From a virus: DNA of 21,610 nt. The stretch lies in IMG/VR virus record IMGVR_UViG_3300031599_000046, positions 1 through 21,610 of that record; one strand, given 5' to 3'. Shown piece after piece: positions 1,845-18,500 of the stretch. Within the stretch, counting starts at the first letter, position 1. Every line of letters begins with the position of its first letter. Both the position numbers and the translations under genes were made by a program. Under the pieces are notes generated by a model that ran no database searches, was not told where the DNA came from, and saw only the letters and a list, made by a program, of their open reading frames with translations.

Positions 1845-2203
1845 ACTACCATCAATGTCCCATTAACTGTTATTGTTACGCCTGAGTCCACATTAAATGG
1901 ACCTACTAATAACCCATTACTATTTGAATCAATTATGTGGCTTCTTGATAAATTTTTTGGATTTGTTCTCAAATCTGCCGCAATCTTTCCCGTAATTGTT
2001 GTTGTTGATATAATTGTATTTATATACGCAGAATCAACTTGATCCCCAATTGCTGAATCTATCATTGATTGAGTTGCTGCAGAGTCAGTTCCAGCACTTT
2101 GTCTTAATTGAATATAATCTGAATCTATTAAAGTAGATGCTAATGATTGTATTCGCGTTTCAGTATCTGTGTGTAGATTAAATGGTCTGATTTTTGTTGA
2201 CAT
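1841..2203 (-). CDS. Small DS-rich fibre-associated protein, 120 aa
   Basis: This short protein contains a module, DSDYIQLRQSAGTDSAATQ followed by SMIDSAIGDQVDSAYI (residues ~28-62), that is nearly the same as modules in the adjacent 1797-residue fibre. The C-terminal half (VGPFNVDSGVTITVNGTLMVV) is a beta-strand ending typical of marine phage fibre pieces. It has six Asp-Ser dipeptides in 120 residues. Its start ATG overlaps the stop of the large fibre gene by 1 nt (TAATG at 2203), with AAGGA about 10 nt upstream, so it is coupled to the fibre. It may be a detached or recombined C-terminal fragment of the fibre, or a small connector. No enzymatic function is visible. Confidence 0.6.
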   Translation of the reverse strand: MSTKIRPFNLHTDTETRIQSLASTLIDSDYIQLRQSAGTDSAATQSMIDSAIGDQVDSAYINTIISTTTITGKIAADLRTNPKNLSRSHIIDSNSNGLLVGPFNVDSGVTITVNGTLMVV

Positions 2204-5200
2204 TATACCGGTGTCCTTATCGCTCTTAGTTTAACATGTGTATTTATCTTTGTTGGACTTAATGTAAGTTGTACATTATCCCCTGATATTCTTGCGTCGA
2301 ATGTTCCTAAATCAGAATCAAGTAGTATTTTTGCGTAACTTGTCATTGCTACACTAGTTCCGTTGTGTACTAATAATATTTCTTCAGAATGATAACCACT
2401 ACTATCATTATTTTCAAGTTGTGCAGTGTACTTTACTGTTCTATAAATTGTTTTATTAAAGCTATGTATAATCTGTGCAGAGTCAGTAGATGTTAAATCT
2501 GAATCAATTGAAAAGATTCCATTTAAATCTGTGGTTGTAGCTTTAGCATGACTTACAACTTCAATAATATTTCCAGATGATAACGCAGAATCAAATACTA
2601 TAGATGTTCCATTAGCAGCTGTAAAATCTTTTCCTGTTACTAATCTTACACCGTTTGCAAATACATCAACTTTACCTACATCATAAGCAAGAGATACTCC
2701 AGCAGAATCATTTCCACTTACTGAATCAGAAGTTGCGCCTAAAGTGTAAATATATGATTTATGATCTCTTAATATTAAATTTACAGATTGTATTAAATGT
2801 GTTCTTGTTTCAATTTCATCACTTGATGATGGAGCAGAATCAAGTGTTAATGTAACACCAGATACGCCATATGTATTTGTGTGTTGTAATATACCATTAA
2901 TGAATACTAATACATCATCTGAATCAACTGGAGTATTCGATAATGTAAACGCTTTGTTACTTCCATTTCCAGCGAATGTATCAGCTTTTACATTATTGAT
3001 TGATCCAATTGAACCACTTGCACTTCCAGGAATAGTAATTGTTTTTGTTGCGCCAGAGCCAGTTGCGGTTACACCGGATCCTACAAAGTTTAATGTACTT
3101 GCTGCAGTAGATAGAGAACTGGCTTCTTCTTGAATTGTTATTGCGCTACCAACTTGTCTTGCTTGTACATAAGATGAGTCAACTTGAAATCCTATAGAAG
3201 AATCAATCATCGCTTGTGTAGCAGCTGAATCTGTACCTGCTGCGGTTCTTGCTTGAACATACGCTGAATCAACTAACACTATCACAGCTGAAGAATCGAT
3301 ATTTCCACTTAATGCTGTAACTGATGCAAATGATAAGTTACCACTTCCATCAGTTTTTAATACATGATTGTTAGAACCATCAGCCTTTGGAAATCTTAAT
3401 CCACCAATCGTTGCTGAGTCGGCAGTAAGTTCACCAGTTATGCTTACTCCTGAATCACTTGTTTGGAATCTTACAGAATGATTGTGCCTTAGCTGAACAT
3501 ACCCATTTTCTTGGAAAATTGCCATATTTTCCGTTCCAGCTGCATTTTGTATATAAAGATCATCTGCCTTAATAACTAAATCACCAGCACCGGCTTCTTC
3601 GATATAAGAAGTGTTATTGGCCTTATTGTGTCTAATGACTAAGTCACCACCAGTTCCAAAACTTGCTTTGTGATCGTCACCAAATTCTAGAGCTTTATCT
3701 GACTTATCAAATATTATACCACCAGCAGAATCAAATATTATGTCATTAGCAAATGTTATTGTATTAGCAAAATTTGAATCAATCATTGACTGCGTAGCGG
3801 CTGAATCTGTACCTGCGGCTGTTCTTGCTTGTACGTATGCAGAATCGATTAATGCGGTAGTTCTTGCAGCTGTGTAATATAAGTTAGTTTGTTCTGGAAG
3901 ATCTGCAGTACTTACTTGATTAGTACCAGTTCCAAAATCAATATGAGTATCATCAATACCATTAGCTTTAATTGTAACTGCACCAGACGAAACACTAAAA
4001 TGATCAGCGCTAAATGAAGCTATACCTTTATTTGAAGTTGATGCATTTTCACCAGATATTGCTCCTGATGATATATCAATACCTTCGCCTGCTGATATTG
4101 CTCCCTGAGCTCTAGCATTTGTAAAATATAGATTACTTCCTTCAGTTAAATTTGCTGTGGTAAATCCTGTTAAGTTGCGTGTACCAAGTACGAGAGCGTG
4201 ACCCATATAACCATGTGCTGAACACTGGTAATGTAATGTTGGAGGTGTCGCTTCACTTACAGCAATTTGTAAGTACGTTGAAGTAGTTGTAACACCACTA
4301 GTATAAGCTGTTGTTTTTGCAGCGTCATAATAAAGTCTAAATGGATGACTTGACATATCACTTGAACTTAAAGTGAATCTATATGTTCTACCTAATTGTA
4401 ATTGAATTATAGGTGAAAACGTACCATCTACTTTATAACCAAGACTACTGCCTGATCCATTATAAACGTGATCGGTGCTTTTTGTAGCGACTGTAACTGC
4501 AAAGTTCTTAACTGCTGCAGTATGCTTATTTCTTTCAACGGCTGTATTTGCAGAGTCTTTTGCTAAGATATAATCACTATCAAAATTAAACATTCCTCGT
4601 ACATTTGCAGAGTCTATATCAAATGTTCTACTAGTAACAATAGTACCACCGCCAGTTAATCCTTTTCCAGCAACTATAGAAACTCCAGAGTGAGATATAT
4701 GCTCGTTAGCTACAAAATTAGCAAGAGCGTCGTGATCTATTGAAGGTATATTACCAATATCAGCAATTAATAAAGCTGGTATTCTAGCGGAATCAATTGT
4801 ACCAGTTAATTGAGCTGCAGGTAATGCTGTTAAATTTGCTCCACTGCCTGTAAATGCATTGGCTTGCATAATACCTGTTAAAAACATGTTTCCTTCATGT
4901 GTTATTCTTGCTTTTTCAGCAGCCGCACCAGAAGTACTAAGTTTAAATACTAAATCAGTATTATTAGCAGTAGAAGAAAAAGTTGTATCTGCTTCTGCTA
5001 CAATAGCAGCAGCTTCGACATTGGCATCACCGCCACTAGCTTCATTAGTTCCTTTAAAACTAATTGTGCCTAGTGTATTTCCATCAACAATTGTACCATC
5101 ACTTCTTTCTAAGATAAGATTACCACCATTACCAGTAGCAGACGCTCGCAGGGTGCCAGCCACTGTCAAAAGATTAGTAGATGGATTAAATGTTAACCCG

Positions 5201-7596
5201 CCGTTGTCTACTTGCATTTGAGAATAACTATTACCAGCTGGCCTTGTGTTCTCAAATATAATATTATAAGCTGCATTATCATCTTCAGATTCGTCAACAA
5301 ACACAGTGCCGGCTCGTGCAGCATTTCCGTTACTGACGTCACTATCAACTCTTGCTTTAGTATAATAAAGATTTGTTCCTTCAGATAACTTTGTAGTAGA
5401 AGCTGAATCTAAATTCATATCAAAGTCAGAATCAACTCTTGCTTTAGTATAATATAAGTTAGTTCCTTCAGTTAAATTAGCAGTGTTTTTAGTTCCTAGT
5501 GCGGAATCAAAATCAGAATCAAATCCTAGAAAACTACCTTGAAATGGTTTATTAAATACAAACTTATCGCCTACTGCCGCATATGTTATTGAAGCATTAG
5601 CACCATTAATTGTAATACCTGCTCCATTCGCAGCAGTTGCTGAATCTGCAGAATCAGCTAATATAATATTCTTATCGTTTATTGAAACTGCAGTTGAATT
5701 AATTACTGTTTGTACACCTTCAACTGTAAGATTTCCTAAAATTGTAACTCTACCAGTTGCATTACCAACTGCAGCAGGATCTATAACAAAGTTTGCTGGA
5801 CCTCTTATTTCGTTAAATGTAACAGTATCACCAGTTCCTACTGATTGTCCAATTGATATTACGCCTGAACCTGAATCATAAGTTACACCTGTTCCACCAA
5901 GTAATGAAGCTTTTGCATCGCTATCACCTCTTGCAGTTGTATAATAAAGATTTGTTGAACCTTCTGATAATTTATCAGTTGAAGCTGAATCTAAGTTTTT
6001 ATCAAAGTCTGAATCAGCTCTTACTGTTGTGTAATATAAATTAGTTTGTTCTGGAAGATCTGCAGTACTTACTTGATTAGTGCCTGTACCAAAATCAATA
6101 TGAGTATCATCAATACCATTAGCTTTTACACTAACAGCTCCAGATGATACAGCAAAATGTTCTGTATTAAAAGACGCAATACCTTTGTTAGATACTGTAG
6201 CATCTTCACCAGATATTGCTCCTGATGATATATCAATACCTTCACCTGCTGTAATATGTGCTCTTACTTCAGAAGCACTTGGACCAGTGTAAGTCATTAC
6301 TCCAGTTGCTGAATCATACGTAAATGATCCATCGCCACCAGCATCAATTCCTAGCAATGAAGCTTTTGCATCAGAGTCTGTACGTGCAGTAGTATAATAT
6401 AAGTTTGTTCCTTCAGGTAATTGAGCAGTATTTGCTAATCCTAAATCTGAATCAAAATTAGATTTTGTATAAATTTGTTCTACATCAATAGAGAATACAC
6501 CAGTTGCAGAGTCATATGTAATGTCACCTTGACCAGAAAAGTGTGCTCTTACTTGTGTTGGGCTTGGACCTGTATATGTTATAACACCATTAGCTGCGTT
6601 ATATGCTAATGCTCCATCACCGCCAGCGTCAGTAACAGATATCATTGACTTTAAATTTGCAGAGTCAACACTAAATATACCAGTTGAGTTACTGTAAACT
6701 AAACCTTTATCGCCTGTAAAGTGCGCTCTTGTTTCACTTGCACTTGGACCAGTGTAAGTCATTACTCCTGATGAAGAATCATAAGTAAAATTACCATCAC
6801 CGCCACCTATTGATCTTGCAAATAAAGAAGCCTTTGCATCACTATCAGCTCTTGCGGTTGTATAATATTGATTAGTTCCTTCTGGAAGATTTGTTGTACT
6901 AAAGTTTGCTGTGAATTCAGCACTATCTATTTTTATAGTATTTGTTGCAGCGTCATAAGCTAAACCTACACCGCCTAAAGCAGCTTCATCAATAGCTAGA
7001 TTGAAATCAGAATCAAAATTTGCTTTTGTATATACTTGCTCAACATCAAAACTAAATACTCCAGTAGAAGAATTATAAGATAAATCTCCACCAGCACTGA
7101 AAAATCCACGTATTTGAGGTACTGATCCAGCTAAATCTATATTTACTACACTACCAGCACTATCTTTAACACCAAACTTATCACCTGAATCTTTAAGTAG
7201 TAATCCACCTAAATGAATAGTTGTTCCACTTAAAAATAAATCTTTCCATTTTTTATCACTATCACCTAAATTATACGCGCTATCTGCGCCAGGCAATAAG
7301 CTTCCATGAGAAGTAAGACCTGATATAATAGGAGAAGAACTCGAATCTATTCGAATTAATAATCTATCATTTCCTGGAGTATATAATTTTTCTAATCCAT
7401 TATCAACATTTAAATCAAAGTTTTTAAATGCTTGTTCACTTGAATCATAGACTAGTATTTGAGCGTCAGATTTCGTGGAAACTTTAAAATCGTTAAACTG
7501 ATCAATTGATAAACCAGTAACTGCTGTAGATATTGGAGTACCAACAACAATCTTTTTAATAAAGGTGTTTTGGCCTGTTGTGACTCTAATTGTCAT
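2203..7596 (-). CDS. Giant repeat-built tail fibre protein, 1797 aa, with cupredoxin-like insert
   Basis: A long fibre built from repeats. The N-terminal 150 residues hold the attachment-type motif GADSAYNLGDSDKKWKDLFL, then SGTTIHLGG, common in marine myovirus fibres. Residues ~160-560 carry repeats of the type GGDGxFTYDSxxGVMTYTGPSASExRAHF alternating with LPEGTNLYYTTARADSDAKASL. Residues ~1028-1137 form a distinct cupredoxin-like domain (H1084, C1125, H1128, M1131). A second set of repeats follows, then FINGILQHTNTYGVSG near residue 1600, another known fibre module. About 50 Asp-Ser dipeptides were counted by eye. The ATG at 7596 has a GAGG Shine-Dalgarno 5 nt upstream. The fibre role is inferred from the motifs; it could be a long tail fibre or a baseplate-attached side fibre. 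A chaperone is not recognised nearby. Confidence 0.8.
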   Translation of the reverse strand: MTIRVTTGQNTFIKKIVVGTPISTAVTGLSIDQFNDFKVSTKSDAQILVYDSSEQAFKNFDLNVDNGLEKLYTPGNDRLLIRIDSSSSPIISGLTSHGSLLPGADSAYNLGDSDKKWKDLFLSGTTIHLGGLLLKDSGDKFGVKDSAGSVVNIDLAGSVPQIRGFFSAGGDLSYNSSTGVFSFDVEQVYTKANFDSDFNLAIDEAALGGVGLAYDAATNTIKIDSAEFTANFSTTNLPEGTNQYYTTARADSDAKASLFARSIGGGDGNFTYDSSSGVMTYTGPSASETRAHFTGDKGLVYSNSTGIFSVDSANLKSMISVTDAGGDGALAYNAANGVITYTGPSPTQVRAHFSGQGDITYDSATGVFSIDVEQIYTKSNFDSDLGLANTAQLPEGTNLYYTTARTDSDAKASLLGIDAGGDGSFTYDSATGVMTYTGPSASEVRAHITAGEGIDISSGAISGEDATVSNKGIASFNTEHFAVSSGAVSVKANGIDDTHIDFGTGTNQVSTADLPEQTNLYYTTVRADSDFDKNLDSASTDKLSEGSTNLYYTTARGDSDAKASLLGGTGVTYDSGSGVISIGQSVGTGDTVTFNEIRGPANFVIDPAAVGNATGRVTILGNLTVEGVQTVINSTAVSINDKNIILADSADSATAANGAGITINGANASITYAAVGDKFVFNKPFQGSFLGFDSDFDSALGTKNTANLTEGTNLYYTKARVDSDFDMNLDSASTTKLSEGTNLYYTKARVDSDVSNGNAARAGTVFVDESEDDNAAYNIIFENTRPAGNSYSQMQVDNGGLTFNPSTNLLTVAGTLRASATGNGGNLILERSDGTIVDGNTLGTISFKGTNEASGGDANVEAAAIVAEADTTFSSTANNTDLVFKLSTSGAAAEKARITHEGNMFLTGIMQANAFTGSGANLTALPAAQLTGTIDSARIPALLIADIGNIPSIDHDALANFVANEHISHSGVSIVAGKGLTGGGTIVTSRTFDIDSANVRGMFNFDSDYILAKDSANTAVERNKHTAAVKNFAVTVATKSTDHVYNGSGSSLGYKVDGTFSPIIQLQLGRTYRFTLSSSDMSSHPFRLYYDAAKTTAYTSGVTTTSTYLQIAVSEATPPTLHYQCSAHGYMGHALVLGTRNLTGFTTANLTEGSNLYFTNARAQGAISAGEGIDISSGAISGENASTSNKGIASFSADHFSVSSGAVTIKANGIDDTHIDFGTGTNQVSTADLPEQTNLYYTAARTTALIDSAYVQARTAAGTDSAATQSMIDSNFANTITFANDIIFDSAGGIIFDKSDKALEFGDDHKASFGTGGDLVIRHNKANNTSYIEEAGAGDLVIKADDLYIQNAAGTENMAIFQENGYVQLRHNHSVRFQTSDSGVSITGELTADSATIGGLRFPKADGSNNHVLKTDGSGNLSFASVTALSGNIDSSAVIVLVDSAYVQARTAAGTDSAATQAMIDSSIGFQVDSSYVQARQVGSAITIQEEASSLSTAASTLNFVGSGVTATGSGATKTITIPGSASGSIGSINNVKADTFAGNGSNKAFTLSNTPVDSDDVLVFINGILQHTNTYGVSGVTLTLDSAPSSSDEIETRTHLIQSVNLILRDHKSYIYTLGATSDSVSGNDSAGVSLAYDVGKVDVFANGVRLVTGKDFTAANGTSIVFDSALSSGNIIEVVSHAKATTTDLNGIFSIDSDLTSTDSAQIIHSFNKTIYRTVKYTAQLENNDSSGYHSEEILLVHNGTSVAMTSYAKILLDSDLGTFDARISGDNVQLTLSPTKINTHVKLRAIRTPV
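3871..4093. repeat. Direct repeat copy A (223 bp) inside the fibre gene
   Basis: This stretch matches 6028-6250 at a constant offset of 2157 bp without indels, with long exact blocks (for example around 3891-3925 and 4052-4085). It encodes a module ending LPEQTNLYYT and containing KANGIDDTHIDFGTGTNQVS. The two copies differ mainly at third codon positions and in a central ~60 bp. Confidence 0.8.
4180..4512 (-). other. Cupredoxin-like domain within the fibre (residues ~1028-1137)
   Basis: Seen in the translation: a beta-rich segment beginning KNFAVTVATKS, a GRTYRFTLSSSDMSSHPFRLY block with H1084, and a terminal HYQCSAHGYMGHAL block with C1125, H1128 and M1131. One upstream His followed by Cys-x2-His-x2-Met is the ligand set of type I copper proteins such as plastocyanin. 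Similar HPF...YxCxxHxxMG segments occur in other marine phage structural proteins. Whether metal is bound is unknown; the fold may serve only as a stable fibre module. Confidence 0.6.
6028..6250. repeat. Direct repeat copy B (223 bp) inside the fibre gene
   Basis: Partner of the copy at 3871-4093. The protein-level module (GEGIDISSGAISGE..., then KANGIDDTHIDFGTGTNQVS) is preserved in both, which indicates intragenic duplication. Recombination between the copies would delete exactly 719 codons in frame. Confidence 0.8.
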
Positions 7597-7603
7597 TAAT
7601 ACC

Positions 7604-7957
7604 TCACTTAGTTACTGAAGGAGTAACTTGAATTCGACCTTCAAGTACTCGTTCAATGATTGTAGCAGAAGTTGCACTATCAACATGAGATAGTTCTATA
7701 TCATATACATGTCGTCCAGATTTTAATGCATTAGTTTGTGCATTAGTAAGAGACAATGTAGCTATTCCGCCAGAAGCATTAGTAATCTGCGTAGCAAATG
7801 ATGTAGTTTCTGAACTATCACTATTAAATGTTTTTTTAATTTTAGATGTTAGTGAATGACCTGACAGGTTTTTTGCTGCGCCGTTAGCATCTACTAAATG
7901 AAGTTCTATAGAGGTATTAGTACCTTGATCAAAGGTAAATTCTTGGTATTGGGCCAT
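7604..7957 (-). CDS. Small beta-sandwich (Ig/BppU-like) fibre- or baseplate-associated protein, 117 aa
   Basis: The chosen start is the ATG at 7957 (MAQYQEFTFDQGTNTSIEL), because GGAG at 7964-7967 lies 6 nt upstream and a late promoter octamer at 8012-8019 would start transcripts near 8006. An upstream in-frame ATG at 8005 would add 16 residues but has no Shine-Dalgarno and sits at the predicted transcript end. The pattern of an N-terminal strand, 'LHLVDANGAAKNLSGHSLTSKIKK', then 'GRHVYDIEL' and 'EGRIQVTPSVTK' resembles the Ig-like N-terminal domain of BppU-type baseplate proteins, which attaches fibres. It precedes the giant fibre by 7 bp, so a connector role fits. The family match is by pattern only. 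Confidence 0.6.
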   Translation of the reverse strand: MAQYQEFTFDQGTNTSIELHLVDANGAAKNLSGHSLTSKIKKTFNSDSSETTSFATQITNASGGIATLSLTNAQTNALKSGRHVYDIELSHVDSATSATIIERVLEGRIQVTPSVTK

Positions 7958-7963
7958 GAAATA

Positions 7964-7967
7964 CTCC
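7964..7967 (-). promoter_or_regulatory. Shine-Dalgarno that fixes the start at 7957
   Basis: GGAG on the minus strand, 6 nt before the ATG at 7957. The same GGAG-plus-6-nt spacing precedes the genes starting at 66 and 12106. The upstream ATG at 8005 has no comparable site. Confidence 0.75.
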
Positions 7968-8011
7968 AGTTGATTTCTTTGTCGGACGATTACCGCCCCT
8001 GCCATTTAAAC

Positions 8012-8019
8012 TATTTATA
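8012..8019 (-). promoter_or_regulatory. T4-type late promoter octamer, reading left
   Basis: A perfect TATAAATA on the minus strand. In T4-like phages this octamer alone, at about -13 to -6, defines late promoters used by host RNA polymerase with gp55 and gp33 on the gp45 clamp. The predicted start is near 8006, giving a leader of about 50 nt before the ATG at 7957. It would drive the distal fibre genes (7957 to beyond 1). Perfect octamers occur elsewhere in this AT-rich window at about the chance rate, so the support is its location in the only divergent intergenic gap. Confidence 0.7.
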
Positions 8020-8031
8020 CAAATTAACTTT

Positions 8032-8039
8032 TATAAATA
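8032..8039 (+). promoter_or_regulatory. T4-type late promoter octamer, reading right
   Basis: A perfect TATAAATA on the plus strand, 12 bp from the divergent minus-strand octamer. The predicted transcript start, 6 nt after the last base, falls on about 8045, which is the A of the ATG of the SPASM-like gene. This suggests a leaderless or nearly leaderless mRNA for the plus-strand enzyme island. Confidence 0.65.
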
Positions 8040-8044
8040 CATTT

Positions 8045-8344
8045 ATGAATGATTTTATCTTAAAACCTCAATGCCATAAACGAGAAAAAACTATACTATC
8101 TAAAGGTGCTGCATATGTATCTACAGGGCATCTACTTCCATGTTGCTGGTGCGATAGTTTAGATCCAAAAAAAATAGAAGAATTTAGAAAGCTTGGTTTT
8201 TTCTTTGAAGATTTAAAAGTTGAAAAAAATGACACAATTGAAGATATACTTATGTCTGACGTTTGGATCAACTTTCATAGAACACTTATAGAGAAACCAG
8301 AAGAAGCACCTTCTACTTGCAAGAAAAACTGCTCGAATGAATAA
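8045..8344 (+). CDS. Stand-alone SPASM-like cysteine-cluster protein, 99 aa
   Basis: A small protein with six cysteines at C10, C33, C34, C36, C92 and C96. The arrangement C10...G28-x4-C33 followed by a closing C92-x3-C96 resembles the SPASM/auxiliary iron-sulfur domain that normally sits at the C-terminus of radical SAM enzymes. The text also fits this family: GAAYVSTGHLLPCCWCD, a helix with 'IEDILMSDVWINFHRTL', then the closing APSTCKKNCS. It overlaps the radical SAM gene by 8 nt, so the two were probably one enzyme split in two, or form a complex. The frame can be extended back to 7898, but that would run through the divergent promoters and the oppositely oriented gene, so the ATG at 8045 is preferred. 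No Shine-Dalgarno precedes it. An auxiliary-cluster or substrate-binding role is inference. Confidence 0.65.
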   Translation: MNDFILKPQCHKREKTILSKGAAYVSTGHLLPCCWCDSLDPKKIEEFRKLGFFFEDLKVEKNDTIEDILMSDVWINFHRTLIEKPEEAPSTCKKNCSNE

Positions 8345-9047
8345 TTTTAATAAGTTATATAGTTCATATATAGAAGAACAAAAAAAAGCAGTTTTTAATA
8401 TCGAAACTACATCTAGATGTAGGCTTCAGTGTCCGTTTTGTCAAAGGCAAAGAAAAGGAGGTAAAGAAAAAGTAAAACTAGCTGGCGAAATGTCGTATGA
8501 AGATATGAGAAAAATTTATAATTTTACTACAAGGATGAATTTTTGTGGACAAATTAGTGATCCGATTTATCATACAGATTTCTTAAAAATACTAGAAATA
8601 AAGAAAAACGAATATCCGAATAATATAATGAGCATAAGAACTAATGGTTCCGGAAAGAAGTTAAGTTGGTGGGAAGCCGCGTACAATCTTTGTGATAAAA
8701 CAACTATATGGACATTTGGTTTAGATGGAGCAAGTCAAAAAACTGCAAATATATATCGAATAGGCACAAACTTTAATGAAATTTTTAAAGCCATGATTAT
8801 TGGAACAAAAAATAAAATACCTATAGAATGGCAATTTATTTTATTTAAACATAATGAGCATGAACTTGAACTGGCTAAAAACCTTTGTAATGAAAACGGA
8901 ATAACTTTAGTTGTTATTTATTCACAGAGATGGCCAAAAGAAAAAAAACATCTTGGAATAAATAAGTCAATTACTCAAATTAAAGAAGAAATTAAAACAC
9001 AACAAATACCAGTGCAAAAATATGGAAAAATATATTTTAACAAATAG
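8337..9047 (+). CDS. Radical SAM enzyme, 236 aa
   Basis: The motif C28-x3-C32-x2-C35 within NIETTSRCRLQCPFCQRQ is the canonical radical SAM [4Fe-4S] site, which cleaves S-adenosylmethionine to a 5'-deoxyadenosyl radical. Downstream, FCGQISDP (69-76) sits where the SAM-binding GGE-type motif is expected, followed by SIRTNG (99-104) and FGLDGAS (127-133), all normal for the barrel. The protein is short and ends soon after the barrel; it lacks a C-terminal SPASM domain, which is supplied by the overlapping upstream gene. The start ATG lies inside the last codons of that gene (8 nt overlap). The substrate is not recognisable: peptide or sugar modification are both plausible. Next to glycosyltransferases in a virion region, modification of virion protein or surface glycan is my inference. 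Confidence 0.85.
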   Translation: MNNFNKLYSSYIEEQKKAVFNIETTSRCRLQCPFCQRQRKGGKEKVKLAGEMSYEDMRKIYNFTTRMNFCGQISDPIYHTDFLKILEIKKNEYPNNIMSIRTNGSGKKLSWWEAAYNLCDKTTIWTFGLDGASQKTANIYRIGTNFNEIFKAMIIGTKNKIPIEWQFILFKHNEHELELAKNLCNENGITLVVIYSQRWPKEKKHLGINKSITQIKEEIKTQQIPVQKYGKIYFNK

Positions 9048-9059
9048 AAGATTAACAAG

Positions 9060-9779
9060 ATGGAAATAATATGTTTAAAGTGGGGTGACAAATTTAGTCA
9101 TGAACATGTAAATCGTTTATATAAAATGGTTAAAAAGAATTTTGATCATGAATTTAACTTTGTATGTTATACAGAAAACTCTACATTAATTAATAAAGAA
9201 ATAGAAATACGTAGATTAAATTCAGAATACGACTTAGAGAAATGGTGGTGGAAACTTACATTATTTGAGAAGCCAACTGATAAACCTACAATGTTTTTAG
9301 ATTTAGATGTTGTAATTCAACATAATATAACTCATTATATAAATTATTGTAAAGATAATAAGATATGCACGATTAAAGCCTATTGGAAGCCACATGCTCA
9401 TAACTTAAAACCAGTCGCACCTGGGTATAATATGGATTTAAATTCTTCTGTTATAATTTGGAAAGGTGATTGTACACACGTGTGGAATGAATTCTATGAC
9501 CAATGTGATTACTTAATGTGTAAATATCAAGGAATAGATTCGTATTTATATTTTCACCATAAAAATATACTTGAATTTTTTCCTAGGAATGAAATATATT
9601 CTAGGTTACATGGAATGGATGAAGAAAGAATGTGGTGGCATGGGCCTAAAGTTCCTTTGTTTTATGATCCGTTATATAGCATTTGTATTTTTAACAAATG
9701 GAAGATGGATAAAAAATGGGGTGGCCCAGGAATTGAAGATGACGCATATGATGGATTTGAAAAGTATTGGAATGATTAA
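9060..9779 (+). CDS. GT-A-fold glycosyltransferase, 239 aa
   Basis: The N-terminus MEIICLKWGDKFSHEHVNRL and 'FNFVCYTEN' match a group of glycosyltransferases common in marine T4-like phages. The metal/nucleotide-sugar DxD motif is D81-L82-D83 within MFLDLDVVI. A preceding KWWWKLTLF (61-69) and a following LNSSVIIWKGD (127-137) are conserved positions in such GT-A enzymes. It would transfer a sugar from an NDP-sugar in the cytoplasm. No signal peptide or membrane segment is visible. It begins 12 nt after the radical SAM stop, and its own stop overlaps the next start (TAATG, 9777-9781). Donor and acceptor are unknown. Candidates are virion proteins, host lipopolysaccharide precursors and modified bases. 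There is no strong Shine-Dalgarno, so coupling to the upstream gene is likely. Confidence 0.8.
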   Translation: MEIICLKWGDKFSHEHVNRLYKMVKKNFDHEFNFVCYTENSTLINKEIEIRRLNSEYDLEKWWWKLTLFEKPTDKPTMFLDLDVVIQHNITHYINYCKDNKICTIKAYWKPHAHNLKPVAPGYNMDLNSSVIIWKGDCTHVWNEFYDQCDYLMCKYQGIDSYLYFHHKNILEFFPRNEIYSRLHGMDEERMWWHGPKVPLFYDPLYSICIFNKWKMDKKWGGPGIEDDAYDGFEKYWND

Positions 9780-10378
9780 TGGACAGTAGATATAGTGAAT
9801 GCTTAGGCTGGTTTTATAGAAGATACCCAGATAAAATAAAAGATTATATACAAAGTGTATCACCAAAACAAATTGCGTGTAAGCAATGGTTAGTAGATCA
9901 ATTAATTGAAATACCACATGATTTTAAAAACATTCATCTATATGGTGGCTGGTTTGGTTATCCTTTAATAGACGTGTTAAATAAACAATATAGTATTGAT
10001 ATTTTAACAAATATAGATTGTGATAAGTTTGCAACTTCAGTTTGTTTTAACTTTAAAAATTATTTTAATCATCATTTTGTAAAAACTTCAACACAAGATT
10101 TAGTAACAACTGGCGGAATATACAAAGAAGTTGATTTAGTAATTAACACTTCTAGTGAACATATGCCTGACTTACCTGAACTTATTAATAATAAATCATA
10201 TAATAAGTCTTGTGTTTTCGCTTTACAAAGTAACAACATGTTTCACTTAGATGAACATACTAATTGTGTAAACTCTCATGAAGAATTAGCTGAAAAAAGT
10301 GGACTTAATACTATATTATATTCTGGTAAATTAGATTTAGATAATTATGAAAGATATATGGTTATAGGTTTATTCTGA
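9779..10378 (+). CDS. SAM-dependent methyltransferase-like protein, 199 aa
   Basis: Rossmann-like pattern: NIHLYGGWFGYPLIDVL (51-67) in the place of the glycine-rich motif I, NIDCD (78-82) as the acidic ribose-binding end of strand 2, and DLVINTSSEHMPDL (119-132) as the motif IV region. After it comes VFALQSNNMFHLDEHTNCV (146-164), seen in related marine phage proteins annotated as methyltransferases. It would methylate an unknown small molecule, sugar or protein. It starts in a TAATG overlap with the glycosyltransferase stop, with GGA 7 nt upstream, and is the last gene of the plus island. Its end overlaps the end of the oppositely oriented oxygenase-like gene by 9 nt (10370-10378). The class assignment is by motif only; motif I is atypical (one GG pair). 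Confidence 0.6.
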   Translation: MDSRYSECLGWFYRRYPDKIKDYIQSVSPKQIACKQWLVDQLIEIPHDFKNIHLYGGWFGYPLIDVLNKQYSIDILTNIDCDKFATSVCFNFKNYFNHHFVKTSTQDLVTTGGIYKEVDLVINTSSEHMPDLPELINNKSYNKSCVFALQSNNMFHLDEHTNCVNSHEELAEKSGLNTILYSGKLDLDNYERYMVIGLF

Positions 10379-10984
10379 TTCTATATCTTCTATCATCATT
10401 TCCCAAAAGCTTTTATCTGGTATAACAAATCCTAATGTGAGTCTATCTTCATAGGCTCTTGCACAATGCCAATATAATTTATCCTTTTCTTCTAAAGATC
10501 CGTAATATCCTACCTTTGCTGTCCAACCAGGCGTATCATTCATAGTTACACTTGATAAACTCTTAGGGTCTTTATATTTAAAAAAACCTTTACCATTTTT
10601 TGTATATGAAAAAAGTATATTATATCCAGAAGCGTTATGATTATTATGCCAACCCATATATCCATTTTCAGGATAATACATTTTAACTGCACAATTTCGA
10701 GCACCTAATATACTACTGAACTGAATATCAACTTGTCTTATTTTTTCTCTTAATTCAATTGGAGTAGAATCAATTGTTGCTATATCAATACCATAAGCTT
10801 TTTCTGGATATCCTACATGAGTTTCTTTATTAACAGATTTAAAATAATCTTCTTCTGTATAATATTCTTCTTGATCAGCTTCACCTGCTAATTTAATAAC
10901 AGATTTATCTAAATTTTTAAACCAACTAGAAAAGTCATTTAGTAACAATAGTATTTCTTTATTTTTAATATTAATTACTTGCAT
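10370..10984 (-). CDS. 2-oxoglutarate/Fe(II) oxygenase-like protein with substituted metal ligand, 204 aa
   Basis: The double-stranded beta-helix signature is visible: YYPENGYMGWHNNHNASGY (103-121), NILFSYT, then KGFFKYKDP, GWTAKVG, and YWHCARAYEDRLTLGFVI (171-188). H113 and H173 fit the iron-binding histidines and R181, eight residues after H173, fits the 2-oxoglutarate arginine. The usual acidic residue of HxD/E is Asn here (H113-N114-N115), so the metal site is non-standard or the enzyme uses another ligand. It starts in a 1-nt overlap with the glycosyltransferase stop (TAATG at 10984), on the strand of the structural genes. If active it would hydroxylate a protein side chain or small molecule. 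Related HxN-type proteins are, as I recall, present in marine phages. Partner and substrate are unknown. Confidence 0.7.
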   Translation of the reverse strand: MQVINIKNKEILLLLNDFSSWFKNLDKSVIKLAGEADQEEYYTEEDYFKSVNKETHVGYPEKAYGIDIATIDSTPIELREKIRQVDIQFSSILGARNCAVKMYYPENGYMGWHNNHNASGYNILFSYTKNGKGFFKYKDPKSLSSVTMNDTPGWTAKVGYYGSLEEKDKLYWHCARAYEDRLTLGFVIPDKSFWEMMIEDIESE

Positions 10985-11685
10985 TAACTTCTCATACTTT
11001 GAGGTATAGGCTGGTGACCTATAACAATATCGTGGCCTTTAAGCTCTTGTTTATTATACACATGTACAAAATTCCATTTAACGTCTGGATCTGGAAAGTA
11101 TGATCTTTTAATTGCATAATCAGTTTTATTTTGTAACCACCAATATGTCCACATATCCCATGGTCTTAAATATTCTGGATAAAGATCAGTATTCCATTTC
11201 CATTTATCAGAATGTTGCTCGCAGTATAATAACCACCATTGTTTCATAAATTCTAAAGTGTGATCTTTATTGTTATATAAAAACAATCCGCAATGATCAG
11301 TTAATTCTCCGCCTTTAAATCTAGATTCAATAGATGCTGCATATCTTCGAGCTTTTGTTATAGTAATATCTGTATTATGATCATATTGATCAAAAATATA
11401 TTGTACATCGTCATGCTCTACCCATGTATCACAATCAATATAACATGTTAACTTATAAGGAGTTTTATCTAAAGCCCATAGTTTTGCTCTTACATGATAT
11501 GGAACATCTTTAGTAATTATATTATCAAATAATGATTTATCTTCTTCGCACACCCATTCTTTATGAGTGAATAAAGTAACATTACAATCAGGCCAATGAT
11601 CTTTTAAACTAGATGCAGAATATCTTGCTGCTACAATAAATTCTTTAGATTTACTTGCAACATAAACGAACCCGTTATTTGCCAT
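10984..11685 (-). CDS. GT-A-fold (GT8-like) glycosyltransferase, 233 aa
   Basis: The DxD motif is D84-C85-D86 within CYIDCDTWVE, after VRAKLWALDKTPYKLT (65-80), where R66 and K68 occupy the conserved basic positions before the DxD in GT8-like enzymes. The start (GFVYVASKSKEFIVAARYSA) and 'NVTLFTHKEW' form the usual first strands of the nucleotide-sugar domain. The C-terminus has IVIGHQPIP, a plausible metal-binding His. It differs clearly from the plus-strand glycosyltransferase, so the cassette carries two separate transferases, perhaps adding two sugars. Its start lies inside the last codons of the upstream gene (11 nt overlap) without a clear Shine-Dalgarno, and its stop is shared with the start of the oxygenase-like gene. 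Donor and acceptor cannot be read from the sequence. Confidence 0.75.
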   Translation of the reverse strand: MANNGFVYVASKSKEFIVAARYSASSLKDHWPDCNVTLFTHKEWVCEEDKSLFDNIITKDVPYHVRAKLWALDKTPYKLTCYIDCDTWVEHDDVQYIFDQYDHNTDITITKARRYAASIESRFKGGELTDHCGLFLYNNKDHTLEFMKQWWLLYCEQHSDKWKWNTDLYPEYLRPWDMWTYWWLQNKTDYAIKRSYFPDPDVKWNFVHVYNKQELKGHDIVIGHQPIPQSMRS

Positions 11686-12106
11686 GTTCTAATAATATCA
11701 ATGAAGAAGTAAATGCAATTACTTCGGTTAAGCTTTTTGCTTTTCTTATTTTAGATTTAAATTCTCTGTTTTTTGAAGTCTTAATTTCTTCAATCTCAAA
11801 TGCTTCAAGTTTAGCTGAAAAAAGAGCGTCAGTCTTCATTCGTTGTTTTTCATCTAATTTAAATTCATTTTTTTTATCGTGTTCTAATTTTACTTCTTTT
11901 AGCAATTCTTCAGTGTTTTTGTCAATTTCTTCAGAAGTATATATTTCAAAGATTTCTTTCCAATCTGGATTACTATCTTTTGTATCTGAAACAGCAGCTT
12001 CCATAACTGGACCGCCTTCATAATTAAATTGACATATAACTTGTGTTTTTTGTTGATTTCCCCAATAGGGATTTAGTATTTTTCGTGGAAGATCTTTGTA
12101 TTCCAT
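11675..12106 (-). CDS. Unassigned charged helical protein, 143 aa
   Basis: I do not recognise a family. The first ~50 residues contain MEYKDLPRKILNPYWGNQQK and 'GGPVMEAAVSDT'; the rest (from ~55) is a strongly charged, Lys/Glu-rich helical stretch with coiled-coil character, ending in a hydrophobic SLILLEHGK. The start is the ATG at 12106, because GGAG at 12113-12116 lies 6 nt upstream; a TTG at 12118 in the same frame is inside that site and is not used here. It lies between structural genes and the glycosyltransferase, whose start it overlaps by 11 nt. It could be a virion or assembly protein, or a helper of the enzymes. No membrane segment or signal is seen. Confidence 0.6.
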   Translation of the reverse strand: MEYKDLPRKILNPYWGNQQKTQVICQFNYEGGPVMEAAVSDTKDSNPDWKEIFEIYTSEEIDKNTEELLKEVKLEHDKKNEFKLDEKQRMKTDALFSAKLEAFEIEEIKTSKNREFKSKIRKAKSLTEVIAFTSSLILLEHGK

Positions 12107-12112
12107 AATAAA

Positions 12113-12116
12113 CTCC
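12113..12116 (-). promoter_or_regulatory. Shine-Dalgarno that fixes the start at 12106
   Basis: GGAG on the minus strand with 6-nt spacing to the ATG at 12106. It excludes the alternative TTG at 12118, which overlaps the site itself. Confidence 0.75.
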
Positions 12117-12125
12117 AATAATGTA

Positions 12126-13136
12126 TTAAGCGGTTCTCACCCATAAGTATTTAGTTGATATTGTTTGTTGACTGCTTTGTACAGTTAACCCTGTAAAATT
12201 TCCAGTAAAAAATCCTGTAAAAAATCCTGTAAATGATCCTGTAAAAAACTTTGTACGGCTGCCAGCAAAATTACCAAGGTTCGAACCAGTAAAGGCTTCG
12301 ATCCGAGCATAGCTAGCACTGAAAAATCCAGCAAATGTATTTGTAAAAGTTCCTTGAAAAGTATTAGAAAAAGCAGTTGAATAAGTTTGATTAGCTAATG
12401 CATAACGCGTATCTAAAAAAGCGCTTCCTGCAATGGCCCACGTTCCGCCAGAATCTGGTGCAGTAGCTTGAACTTTGTATTGCCCAACTCCTACTCTAAT
12501 TCTATTTTTTAATCTAGCTGTAAATTGCTTTATTTCAGTATCAGTCATTTCTTGTATAGTTTGAGTACTAAACTTAAGTGGTCTTACTGTTGTAGGTGTT
12601 GATGCTGGCTGAGATTTTCTCCATAATTTATATGTAGTATTTGTAGCATTTGAAAGTAAATTAGTAATAGTGCTTTTAGATACCCATGTTCCATCTGTTG
12701 GTGCAGAAGGTTGTAATTTATACATTCCTACACCAGAATTCACTAAGTTATTTTGAGTAGATGCAATGAAATCAGAATTAACATTTGTTGAAGGCATTCT
12801 TTTTAAATTAGTTGTACTATCAACCATTAATGGTCTAGTTGCTGCAGCAACACTTTCAGATGCTGATCGTAAATCTTGATAAAATGTATATGTTACTGTA
12901 GTTACACTAGTTCCTACTGGGTGTGCGCCAGGAGCAGCGCCTCCTCGAGTATCAGTAATAGTACCTATGTTTGTTAATCCAGTCGCATCTGAAGGATTAA
13001 CACTCAATGTTCCGGAACCTGTATCTGAAGAATAAAAATCTGTTAATAACACATGTTCTAAATAATCTTTATCAGTAGCAGACATCTCTTGTATAGTGCC
13101 ACCAGAGTTTGTTTGTTTAACAATAATATTAGCCAT
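12126..13136 (-). CDS. Virion structural protein with internal duplication and FTG repeats, 336 aa
   Basis: The N-terminal part (MANIIVKQTNSGGTIQEMSA) and a later TQTIQEMTDTEIKQF (from ~192) are related, as are GVGMYKLQPSAPTDGTW (~136) and GVGQYKVQATAPDSGGTW (~217), so the body is an internal duplication. The C-terminal ~75 residues are aromatic-Thr-Gly repeats ending in five FTG units (FFTG SFTG FFTG FFTG NFTG) and a closing STKYLWVRTA. Such F/Y-T-G repeats are found in structural proteins of marine T4-like phages and probably form a beta-solenoid-like stalk. GGAG 8 nt upstream supports the ATG at 13136, 3 bp after the preceding stop. Precise position in the virion is unknown; baseplate or fibre attachment is likely from its neighbours. 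Confidence 0.65.
   Translation of the reverse strand: MANIIVKQTNSGGTIQEMSATDKDYLEHVLLTDFYSSDTGSGTLSVNPSDATGLTNIGTITDTRGGAAPGAHPVGTSVTTVTYTFYQDLRSASESVAAATRPLMVDSTTNLKRMPSTNVNSDFIASTQNNLVNSGVGMYKLQPSAPTDGTWVSKSTITNLLSNATNTTYKLWRKSQPASTPTTVRPLKFSTQTIQEMTDTEIKQFTARLKNRIRVGVGQYKVQATAPDSGGTWAIAGSAFLDTRYALANQTYSTAFSNTFQGTFTNTFAGFFSASYARIEAFTGSNLGNFAGSRTKFFTGSFTGFFTGFFTGNFTGLTVQSSQQTISTKYLWVRTA
12190..12249. repeat. Five tandem 12-bp units encoding FTGx
   Basis: Five contiguous 12-bp units, plus-strand form CCTGTAAAAAAT with small variations, starting at 12190, 12202, 12214, 12226 and 12238. They encode the C-terminal (F/S/N)FTG steps of the 336-aa structural protein. Unit-number change by slippage would keep the frame. 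Confidence 0.85.
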
Positions 13137-13970: not shown

Positions 13971-15539
13971 TTATACACTCAATGCAATTGCTCTTAAACT
14001 TTGAAATACAGGTACCACCGCTTGGTTGACACTTTGCATTACTATTTTTAATTGATACTTAGTAAATGCTGGTAAGTCGCCTCCTAAGCCTCCTACTAAA
14101 TATCTATACTCTCTAAATATAAGCGGATTTGAATCTTTAGGATTAGTATTTTCTGCAGTTATTAATGCATATGACTTATCTGACAATAGTTCATCAGATG
14201 TTGCAGTTCTATAGTATAACTGAAAATCAGCTGCATTTGGAATATTAGCTTCTAAAAGTATTCTTAAACCTACAGCATCAGATTCAAGATTTATTACTCT
14301 TGTTATATGTCTAGCTGCATGACTTCCATTTGGTCCAGCTTCAGCAGCATGAACTAATGGTACATTAAACCCAGTAGTAGTACTAGATGCTTGTTTATCT
14401 ATAACATTAGATATAAGAGTTGCTGAAGTACGTTGTAAATCAAGCATAGGCGCAACGTTATTGTCTATAGTTGATATATTTATATTCATATCTAAAGACT
14501 TCACACCTGACCCAAGTTCACTGGTTTCTGATGTAGCATTTGCCACTAACTTCATAATAGTTGCGGTATTGTTTTGATTTAATTTAATACCATTAAAAGC
14601 TGATGTTTTTTGAAATGCTGTTTCTGTTCCAGCAAAAGATCTAGCTGATGTAGATTTCATCGATGCAGTAATAGTAGTTCCCTTTGGCTCTATCGTAGCA
14701 GCACTAGGATATATCACACTATATAGAATATTCTTAGTAGCTTTTATTACACTACCTCCACCTTTAACAGCTTTATTAGCATTAGCCGCAGCTTCTACAG
14801 TATATCCGGTATAATCTCTAGCTGTAATTGTTCTACTTCCATTTATATTAGCTGCTGACAATCCACCTACTGCAACAGCTCCACTTATAACTACTGTATC
14901 GCCAATTTGTAATCCATGATTTAGATGAAATATTCTTATAGTAGCATCTGATACAGCTGTAGTAATTGGATTTGGTGTCAATAAACTTAAAGGCAATGGC
15001 GCATTTTTAAGACTTATTATTGCACTAGTATGTTTAAATTTTGCTTTATGTAAAACAAAAGATAAGTCTTGATTTTGTGCAGCAGTAAAAGTAACTCCAT
15101 TTTGTGAATAAAATAAACTACCAGATGTAGGTTGTTTATTAACTCTTCTTTCTGTTGAGCCATATGTGAATTCATTTATTTCTGCTATATAAATTTGATA
15201 ATCTTTTGAATCAGCAGTTACTACTAGAGCATAATCTTCTAAACCTTTTAAAAATATAGGTTCTTGAAATGTAAATGAAGTAGAAGTTAAAGCAGGTCCA
15301 ACTAAATCAACGTTTATACTGCTAGCTGAAACAACAACTTGTGATCCAGGAATAATTTCTGTATCTGATGGCAAACCATTAACTATTGGGCGTAATTGTA
15401 TTTGAACTGGTAAACTTGCATCTTTTGTAGCAAAAAATAAATCTACCTTTGTTACGTATATCCCATTTGGTTCATCAATAAAAAATGATTGGGCTATAGG
15501 CTGTTTATTAAGTTGATACCCTGTAGAAGTTACTGCCAT
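13971..15539 (-). CDS. Baseplate/tail-associated structural protein, 522 aa
   Basis: The N-terminal domain (residues ~10-165) has the pattern PIAQSFFIDEPNGIYVTKVD, FFATKDASLPVQIQLRP, FTFQEPIFLKGLEDYALVVT and SLFYSQNGVTFTAAQNQDL, a beta-sandwich block that in marine T4-like phages accompanies DUF4815 proteins. The middle (~185-265) holds an insertion with LNHGLQIGDTVVISGAVAVG, a small barrel-like motif seen in other structural proteins. The C-terminal part (residues ~320-522) is a further beta domain with 'DFQLYYRTATSDE'. It begins 1 bp after the stop of the 1324-aa gene, with only a weak AGGG Shine-Dalgarno, so the two are probably co-translated and assemble together. No T4 counterpart by sequence is recognised; its place in the operon after gp8 suggests the baseplate periphery. 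Confidence 0.6.
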   Translation of the reverse strand: MAVTSTGYQLNKQPIAQSFFIDEPNGIYVTKVDLFFATKDASLPVQIQLRPIVNGLPSDTEIIPGSQVVVSASSINVDLVGPALTSTSFTFQEPIFLKGLEDYALVVTADSKDYQIYIAEINEFTYGSTERRVNKQPTSGSLFYSQNGVTFTAAQNQDLSFVLHKAKFKHTSAIISLKNAPLPLSLLTPNPITTAVSDATIRIFHLNHGLQIGDTVVISGAVAVGGLSAANINGSRTITARDYTGYTVEAAANANKAVKGGGSVIKATKNILYSVIYPSAATIEPKGTTITASMKSTSARSFAGTETAFQKTSAFNGIKLNQNNTATIMKLVANATSETSELGSGVKSLDMNINISTIDNNVAPMLDLQRTSATLISNVIDKQASSTTTGFNVPLVHAAEAGPNGSHAARHITRVINLESDAVGLRILLEANIPNAADFQLYYRTATSDELLSDKSYALITAENTNPKDSNPLIFREYRYLVGGLGGDLPAFTKYQLKIVMQSVNQAVVPVFQSLRAIALSV

Positions 15540-15540
15540 T

Positions 15541-18500
15541 TTATATGCCCTTTTTCATTGTTATAATTAAACCTATCAGCCTTAATGTTGGTCTTACTAA
15601 TATTTTAGAAGAAATATCATAAGCATGTTGAGCTAAAGTAAGTTTAGTATTTAATTGTTTTGCTTTAAACAATTTAGTTAAAAACGTTCCTGATTTAGTA
15701 TTACCTAATAACTTAGCAAGTTTAGGACCAACTGCATCATATCCAATCATTCTATATGGATCAGTTCTTCGTAAATAAACACCCCATTTTTTAAGAACTC
15801 TATAATGATCCATTGAAATTAAGTTATTATCGAACACTGCTGCACAAATCCAAGAATTATCCGCAGTTGCGGATTCTTCATGTCCACCTACGCCAGAGTG
15901 CTGATTATTATTATTATTGTTTTGTCCATTTGTTGTTCCTACCCCAACTTCATTTCCTACACCTGGATTTCCATGATCTGTTGGAGATGGTCCGTGTTCG
16001 CCTCCATCATCTCCAACATATCTATAATATACAGATGGTGGTACACTAAATCCTTGTACATTTAATTGTCTAGTTGATGTATACGTAGCTTCTTTAGTAT
16101 CTAAATATCCAAGTGCAGCATAATTTGCGCGACCAATACTACCAGCATTTTCTTCATTATCGACTGAGATATCTAAGAATTTTAATTGTTTAGTACCAAC
16201 TCTAAATCTTAAAGCATCGTTATTAGGTATTATCAAAGAACCTTCTACAGCGCCGTCATTATCAGTTGTTAAAGTATTTGTTCCATCCGGATGAGCTGTT
16301 AATCCGTTTAAGGTATTACCAAAATCTGTAGTAGTTGCTGAATAAAATTGGAATGTTTCTTCTCTAGCGAATGCTGCTATATTTACACCGTCTAGTACTG
16401 GAAATATTTGTGTGTTAGGGCGCATTGCTTGTACTTTAAAATGCACTTTACGCGATCTCATAAATGGTAAAAACGCAGTTTGTAAAACTCTATCTTCAAC
16501 TAAATCTAATATTGTTTCTTCACTCACAACTCTATTAACCACACCGCTTTGTGTGTTAGTACTAGATCCTACTTGTAAATTTTCTACAGGTATTCCAGAC
16601 CAACTCCATGACCAATTATTCCAGTTATTAGCGTTATTAGTTGCAAGGCGTGTTCCACCATGAATAATTTTATCTGGGAGACGTAATACGTCTCTCCACT
16701 CATCTGAAGCAGGAGATAGTGTAACTAGTCCTTCATAAATAATTACAGCAAAAGGATTAAGATGAACAAATTTTGTAGCTAGGTTTTGATTAATATATGG
16801 TTCTTCATCATATTCCATATAGACGTTATCGCCTTTACGTATAGTATTAGTTGATGCAGCAGAATCATACAATAATCTTATATTGTCTTCTAAGAATGCA
16901 GGTCTCATATGCTGTTCTACAGGATCAATGGCTGCTCTATACCCAGCAGTAATCCTTCGCGTATCAGTAAAAGTATGATCACCAAAATTATCAACAAAGA
17001 ATCCTGATTTAGCTCTATCATTACCAGAAGAATCTAGTGTTTGAAAATATTTAGTATCAACTTCTAATAAGCTTAAAGCTGTAACGTCTTCAAGGTTGCT
17101 TAATCTTTTTTCTAATCTTCCAATATCTTTCATAGTAAAACGTCTATGCTCAATTTTTTGAACTGATACATCAGAATCATTATCAGTATTTGCACCCATT
17201 TTAATATCATACAGCCCTAAAGACTGTTCTGGTCTATTTGGAGTAGCTGGTGTAAAAGATGGCATGCCATGAACAAAATTTATAATACCTTCTCTATTAA
17301 TTACAAGTTTGCCAGCTTGTCCTAAATAATACTCATTATCACTCGTAATAAGTGTTCCAGGTTGAGGAAGTTCAATTACTCTAGCGCCGGAGCCTGAGGT
17401 AGCGAATGTAGATGACGCGTCCATGACTGATCTAAAATCTAAGAAATTTCTTAAATTAATTCTATTGCCTGTAGATGTAGTAAATTCTGGTATTTTATCA
17501 TAAGTAACTTGACCATTATATGAATTAACTGCGAAGAAGTCTCCAGAAACACCATGCTCAAAATAACGATACTTTATTTGACAACTATCAACTGCGGATA
17601 AACCAGGATTTAGACTTATTTTTCCTAAAGCATAATGATTATCTCTTTGACCATTATCTAATTTAAATACTGTAGTTCGTGAAGTAGCGCTATCACCTGC
17701 CTTTATTACTTCAGTTATATCAAATATGTCAGCTTTACCTAAAGTTATAGATGTTCCTCCTGCTAAAACTTCAGTCTTGGTTGTTAAAGTTTTAGTTTTT
17801 ATTGAAGGTTGACTTTTATTAACATAAGCTAATATTTCAACGGCTGCGCTAGCTGGTAAAGAAGTTATAGACGAAGCGGTTGCTCCATTACCACCAATTG
17901 ATGGATTAGTATATAACGCACTTGGATATAATACACTACTATCGCTACCAATAATCCAATCACTTACATTAGTAAATGTTTCTCCAGTAGCTGATAAACT
18001 TATTGAAGCTGCGCCTGATCCATTTGCAGTTGCAGTAAATCTACGTTGTACAGCAAACGAAATATCTGTAATTGCTTTAGGTCTAGGTTTACCTACAGGA
18101 AATAAAGAAGTATTATTAAAAGGATCTTTTAAAACAGCTTTACCATTTTCTAATTCTGCATTAAAATATTCAGAAGTGCCTGTTCCTATACTTTTAACAT
18201 TTCTAAAAGCTTTTCCACTATTCAATTGAATATCAAACATATGAAATTTAAGTTTATTTTCAAAATGATTTATAGCTTTAACTCTTGCAGTTCCAATAGT
18301 TGATCCAGCATAATTGTGGCCATCTCTAAGATTCAATGCCGGAAAAGTGTTTATATTAGGTATTCCATCAATTGCACCTGCACTATCAGTATTAACTACA
18401 ATAGCATTACCATAATCTATTGGTGTCACTTCATTTGTAATTTCAAGTGATGAACTTGGTTTTGTTATACGCAGAGTTGTAGGAAATGTAGTAGCTGCTC

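Follow-up and report, generated by a model that had tools for sequence, protein, structure and literature searches.

Two enzyme genes beside an aromatic-glycine repeat protein in the tail operon of aquatic phages: a candidate virion-modification system

The window analysed here, a 21,610 b fragment of the uncultured virus record IMGVR_UViG_3300031599_000046, carries a repeat-bearing protein gene in its tail operon followed by two enzyme genes, GT2 and 2OG, considered here as a candidate system for modification of the virion. Its named relatives are the Kyanoviridae Pelagibacter phage Mosig and Phage C48C1. An earlier note on this DNA had read six open reading frames (ORFs) as one modification cassette. 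All six are present where that note placed them, are predicted to be of the kinds named, and are each conserved as protein in other phages. They are, however, two separate units on opposite strands. Four genes are on the plus strand, encoding a SPASM-like stand-alone iron-sulfur protein (8045..8344), a radical S-adenosylmethionine (SAM) protein, rSAM (8337..9047), whose partner the SPASM-like protein is presumed to be, a second glycosyltransferase, GT1 (9060..9779), and a class-I SAM methyltransferase-like protein, MT (9779..10378). On the minus strand, aligned with the structural genes, are 2OG (10370..10984), encoding an Fe/2-oxoglutarate oxygenase-like protein, and GT2 (10984..11685), encoding a predicted glycogenin/UGGT-like GT-A glycosyltransferase. 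The MT and 2OG genes are convergent and overlap by 9 bases. The cassette as first drawn left out the minus-strand gene for the repeat protein (12126..13136); a small partner protein, 11675 (11675..12118, minus strand), lies between this gene and GT2.

The repeat protein has N-terminal domain repeats and C-terminal [FY][TSA]Gx repeats, the sequence ending in aromatic-glycine tetrapeptides (...FFTGSFTGFFTGFFTGNFTG). The unit, compiled from 99 repeat ORFs, reads [Y 72%/F 28%]-[T/S 60%]-[G 73%]-x. Relatives reach hundreds of units, with 207 motifs in the 3,347 aa protein of C48C1. The N-terminal family exists without repeats as well, as in the Mosig/L022 type. When phage records were searched by tblastn with the repeat protein of the window, nothing matched. 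N-glycosylation through NxS/T sequons was rejected as an explanation of the repeat, these being present at about 2 per 100 aa and an inconsistent feature of the unit. A carbohydrate-binding-like protein with SYTGSYSG repeats is encoded on an unrelated viral contig without GT2 or 2OG (L047:3086-4846), and the aromatic-glycine repeat may on this basis have a use of its own.

The GT2 model, from a 54-row alignment, has a mean predicted local distance difference test (pLDDT) score of 95.7. Its 50 best Foldseek matches are all glycogenin or UGGT (E 4e-10 and 6e-9, respectively), and there is a profile match to glycogenin with an E value of 0.006. D84, D86, D177 and H224, which include the DxD metal motif and a C-terminal His, are invariant in all 80 sequences of a family that has diverged to about 28% identity. 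None of GT1, MT, 2OG and GT2 of the window has a significant Pfam match, and other members of the GT2 family have weak, scattered Pfam matches only. GT2 is therefore described as a GT8-like (glycogenin/UGGT-like) GT-A glycosyltransferase on the strength of its modelled fold, rather than being filed as GT8. Glycogenin (GT8) glucosylates its own Tyr, and UGGT (GT24) glucosylates the N-glycans of glycoproteins. GT2 shares the DxD metal site with these best fold matches but is shorter, has about 10-18% identity to them in fold alignments, and has no known self-glucosylation.

The 2OG model (pLDDT 94) has a predicted double-stranded beta-helix fold, matched by Foldseek to prolyl hydroxylases (P4H), PHD2 and AlkB with E values of 1.6e-4 to 1e-3; Pfam and PDB sequence searches with 2OG returned nothing usable. 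H113, N115, H173 and R181 are invariant in 74 of 74 sequences. The metal motif is therefore HxN...H in every member, rather than the HxD/E...H facial triad. R181, the conserved Arg after the distal His, would bind 2-oxoglutarate. Distant relatives (L311-L316) are found in marine bacterial bins of Halieaceae, Luminiphilus, Rhodobacteraceae and others, with no Pfam family for the four that were scanned. These also have HxN, although the search pattern required it.

The association of these two enzymes with the repeat is nearly perfect. A DNA pattern based only on the repeat codons, and so independent of the enzymes, identified at least 119 stretches. In all 65 genuine repeat loci with enough downstream sequence (47 distinct at 90% GT2 identity), 11675, GT2 and 2OG are on the same strand beside the repeat. 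GT2 is present before the stretch ends in 4 further repeat loci, and the remaining stretches are too short downstream or contain another repeat. Whole-contig searches of the short repeat loci added 10 more with both GT2 and 2OG. When the best 80 loci from a GT2-profile scan were considered, the repeat and 11675 were upstream in 72 out of 72 and 2OG was downstream in 70 out of 70, although very distant GT2 relatives elsewhere could be missed because the profile was built from repeat-linked members. In the phage collection, only C48C1 of the 529 records with a homologue of the baseplate protein gp8 matched a GT2 family member, 2OG and 11675 together.

Homologues of the repeat protein that lack the repeats were found at this position in 79 loci, 60 of them with enough sequence. 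Neither GT2 nor 2OG is present in any of the 60, which retain 11675 in 55 cases, GT1 in 50, MT in 45 and rSAM in 26. Searches of the whole records of 19 repeat-less contigs and of HTVC008M found no GT2, except for one weak match of 28.6 bits. The partner protein 11675, kept with and without the repeat, is possibly a tail-protein chaperone. Some apparent repeat loci without enzymes were rejected. The S-RIM2 'structural protein' has a GNVTGNLTG repeat with one aromatic motif, and eight others are simple PGR repeats, likely to be antisense readings or unrelated short ORFs; L111 and L090 were rejected like these. A host origin of GT2 and 2OG was likewise rejected, the search of genome contigs having given three apparent phage contigs that carry these two families and the six distant, repeat-less relatives of 2OG. 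The three contigs (L308, L309 and L310) are in metagenome-assembled genomes assigned to Muricauda, 'Bifidobacterium breve' and Gammaproteobacteria, and are probably binning errors or infections.

In L310 the repeats are also embedded in another tail fibre, one rich in glycine (phrog_11439, E 1e-6; L310:64-1944), which is followed directly by GT2 and then asm, the gene for an L-shaped tail fibre assembly-like protein. This contig also encodes a repeat protein of the standard kind, with 11675 and 2OG behind it. The repeat thus seems, from this arrangement, to be portable between fibre proteins. On a tree of the VrlC-like baseplate protein from 72 loci, repeat state and enzyme pair agree in 72 of 72 rows, with at least 4 joint switches on well-supported branches. 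This co-switching is suggestive only as evidence of coupling.

The locus carries T4-type late promoter sequences. The octamer TATAAATA is present back to back within the 39 bases separating asm (7604..8005, minus strand; phrog_3304, E 2e-14) and the SPASM-like gene, one copy serving the fibre-assembly and fibre unit (8012..8019, minus strand) and the other the plus-strand island (8032..8039, plus strand). The copy upstream of asm is found in 40 out of 43 distinct loci, where about 0.01 would be expected, and the divergent copy before the plus-strand genes recurs in L007, L012, L013, L014 and L179; across the whole window the frequency of the octamer is not above chance. The late promoter proposed in the earlier note is in this way borne out, and late expression of the island is well supported by the recurrence of these sequences. 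In the window and the same five loci the first ATG of the island is exactly 5 nt past the octamer, a constant spacing that suggests a leaderless late mRNA, and the island message is probably of this kind. The layout of the two promoters (8012-8039 in the window) is TATTTATA, usually 12 bp, and TATAAATA. The start of asm is likely to be at 7960 rather than 8005, at a second Met that has GGAGT upstream and is about 45 nt past the octamer.

Across many T4-related phages of aquatic origin, GT2 and 2OG are always directly behind a repeat gene, which suggests that they hydroxylate and glycosylate the repeat. It is probable, with an appreciable margin of doubt, that they are a late-made pair modifying the [FY]-[TSA]-G-x repeat of the tail-operon protein encoded by 12126-13136 during assembly. 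This names a candidate where the earlier note had found no substrate identifiable: the gene for the repeat protein belongs to the late baseplate-fibre operon that includes GT2 and precedes GT2 by two genes. The 2OG protein would act first, oxidizing (hydroxylating) residues in or beside the repeat. GT2 would then transfer a sugar, probably a hexose, from a nucleotide sugar to the new hydroxyl or to an existing one on Thr, Ser, Tyr or a hydroxylated residue, as the tail is assembled. The outcome would be a tail whose repeat segment is coated with sugar, with the repeat protein forming part of the virion. Comparative evidence supports the repeat protein, its partner, GT2 and 2OG as a putative virion-modification system.

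The best analogue is mimivirus L230, which modifies viral collagen-like repeats by hydroxylating their lysine and adding glucose (review PMC9614988). There a viral 2-oxoglutarate-dependent hydroxylase and a glucosyltransferase act on a repetitive virion protein, as 2OG and GT2 would. In L230 both activities are fused in one protein, whose target is Lys of Gly-X-Y repeats, whereas GT2 and 2OG are two bacteriophage genes, the latter with HxN, beside an aromatic-Gly repeat. As this repeat is poor in Lys and Pro, the likeness is in outline only.

Several points weigh against modification of the repeat by this pair. Lys and Pro, in which the repeat is poor, are the usual hydroxylation targets. The TM-scores of the 2OG Foldseek matches are modest, at 0.33-0.50. 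HxN in place of HxD may impair iron binding by 2OG, and the activity of an HxN enzyme is uncertain and is the weakest step of the mechanism. An independent-pairs sign test on the VrlC tree gives p 0.125, there being too few events for significance, and because adjacent genes can move as one block the joint switching partly reflects linkage. The repeat-rich protein of L047, which belongs to another family, is the one real exception to the rule that the repeat implies the enzymes, with no GT2 or 2OG on its incomplete 36-kb contig.

The plus-strand genes behave differently from the minus-strand block. The rSAM protein matches PF04055 (E 1e-8) and has a CxxxCxxC motif in which C28, C32 and C35 are invariant in 6 sequences. 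The SPASM-like protein matches PF13186 with an E value of 0.018, below the Pfam cut-off, and its C33, C34, C92 and C96 are likewise invariant in 6 sequences; the radical SAM motif and the SPASM cysteines are therefore on two separate proteins. GT1 matches the PHROG 'glycosyltransferase' family phrog_1962 (E 2e-13), and D81 and D83 of its DxD motif are invariant in 10 sequences. MT, placed by family alignment, has weak similarity to class-I methyltransferases (Methyltransf_25) and spermidine synthase (E about 1e-3). C48C1 and L016 have repeat protein, 11675, GT2, 2OG and asm in succession, with no gene between 2OG and asm. In other phages a variable island fills this gap, with mixes of MT, GT1 copies, rSAM, SPASM, nitroreductase, another 2OG, NAD-synthase-like and carbamoyltransferase-like genes. 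The minus-strand block is therefore the constant part and the plus-strand genes are exchangeable cargo. Between the window and L007 the island has 71-88% identity and asm 93%, compared with just 54% for the VrlC-like protein, which indicates from these sequences that the island, asm and the fibre genes are exchanged together.

The earlier note suggested that the six genes as a set may be undescribed. The island holding the plus-strand genes has been described before, in pelagimyophages, under the name 'host recognition cluster'; the sections of that paper concerned note GT8 enzymes and radical SAM cassettes and propose change of the host O-antigen (PMC7029224). It is the same T4-like structural region beside VrlC, hypervariable and with fibres mixed with glycosyltransferases and radical SAM cassettes (PMC7029224). 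In the window the products of the 15541 and 13971 ORFs are VrlC-like and the island content is variable, in agreement with this. The glycosyltransferases are treated in those sections as lipopolysaccharide (LPS) enzymes, and the constant block of repeat, 11675, GT2 and 2OG and its coupling are not separated there (PMC7029224).

It is conceivable, though rather unlikely, that GT2, GT1 and the other genes act late in infection to remodel the O-antigen or surface of the host, blocking superinfection or stopping new virions from sticking to debris. This follows the published interpretation of the island, in which GT8 outnumbers every other family and LPS genes are common (PMC7029224, in the sections on the cluster). 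Aminotransferase, carbamoyltransferase and other sugar-type genes are present in the related islands of Mosig, L015 and L022, and MT and GT1 are found both with and without the repeats. Action on the host surface leaves unexplained, however, why a repeat in the tail operon and the pair GT2 and 2OG are each found only where the other is, and why GT2 stands behind a different repeat-bearing fibre in L310. Late promoters also suit the exclusion of other phages less well. Late expression and a virion protein as substrate, both suggested in the earlier note, are well supported for GT2 and 2OG; for the plus-strand genes, modification of fibres and modification of host surface glycans are about equally open.

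It is improbable that the six enzymes make up a single system for modifying the virion, as the earlier note proposed, in which rSAM/SPASM, GT1 and MT would act on the fibre or repeat protein as well. The six genes are together in the window, L007, L012 and L068, the island has its own late promoter, and it moves with asm and the fibre. Of the 65 repeat loci, however, only about 4 were found to have rSAM. The island is found without repeats, GT2 or 2OG in Mosig, L022 and many others, for which reason the SPASM-rSAM-GT1-MT group was rejected as an obligate partner of GT2 and 2OG. In L021 these four genes form a unit outside the fibre region, near what read from their sequences as a PstS-like protein and desaturases. 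Mere linkage in a co-transferred block, with the enzymes acting elsewhere or now structural or chaperone-like, would fit the adjacency and joint switching of the genes and a loss of catalysis through HxN, but is very improbable given the invariant DxD of the diverged GT2 family, the position of 11675 between repeat gene and enzymes and its persistence without them, and the separation in L310 of enzymes that each still follow a repeat gene.

If GT2 and 2OG do modify the repeat, a broader proposal can be made, tentatively and with less confidence. This is that an HxN 2OG hydroxylase and a glycogenin-like transferase modifying a tail repeat may be a widespread, undescribed phage system, a counterpart of collagen hydroxylation-glycosylation in which the repeat is a portable glycosylation tag. 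Phage-encoded enzymes modifying tail proteins are rarely considered, and the glycosyltransferases of marine phages are as a rule assigned to LPS or DNA modification. For two families lacking annotation, a specific candidate substrate can be named in the present case, and the phages concerned are common in aquatic metagenomes. If the pair does modify the repeat, glycosyltransferase and 2-oxoglutarate oxygenase genes near phage fibres need a different reading, and tail adhesion may be shielded or tuned by this mechanism.

Virion glycosylation is also a feature of mycobacteriophages, for which we know of no oxygenase partner. Their glycosyltransferases have been connected with glycans carried by proteins of the capsid and tail tube (Freeman et al. 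2023, cited in PMC12619734). The phages, targets and enzymes are other ones than here. The Campylobacter phages CP220 and CPt10 have an interchangeable island rich in radical SAM genes, but these clusters are not described as tied to tail fibres (PMC2853527), and their radical SAM proteins have just about 25% identity to rSAM of the window.

In Mosig the enzyme island is large (L001:4702-21306), with nitroreductases, a MoaA-like radical SAM protein, aminotransferases, a carbamoyltransferase and two Asp/Arg hydroxylase-like genes, most genes of this island being without assigned function. Downstream of asm, which borders the island in the window, is an ORF for a large tail fibre protein (2203..7596, minus strand) with homologues in L007, L012, L013 and L014. 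Small structural and fibre genes are also within the window, as is the baseplate gene gp8 (ORF 19527). The VrlC-like protein (phrog_358) spans 13971-19515 as the two ORFs 15541 and 13971, corresponding to phrog_358 positions 578-1398 and 1765-2055, and is a single 2,046-aa ORF in Mosig.

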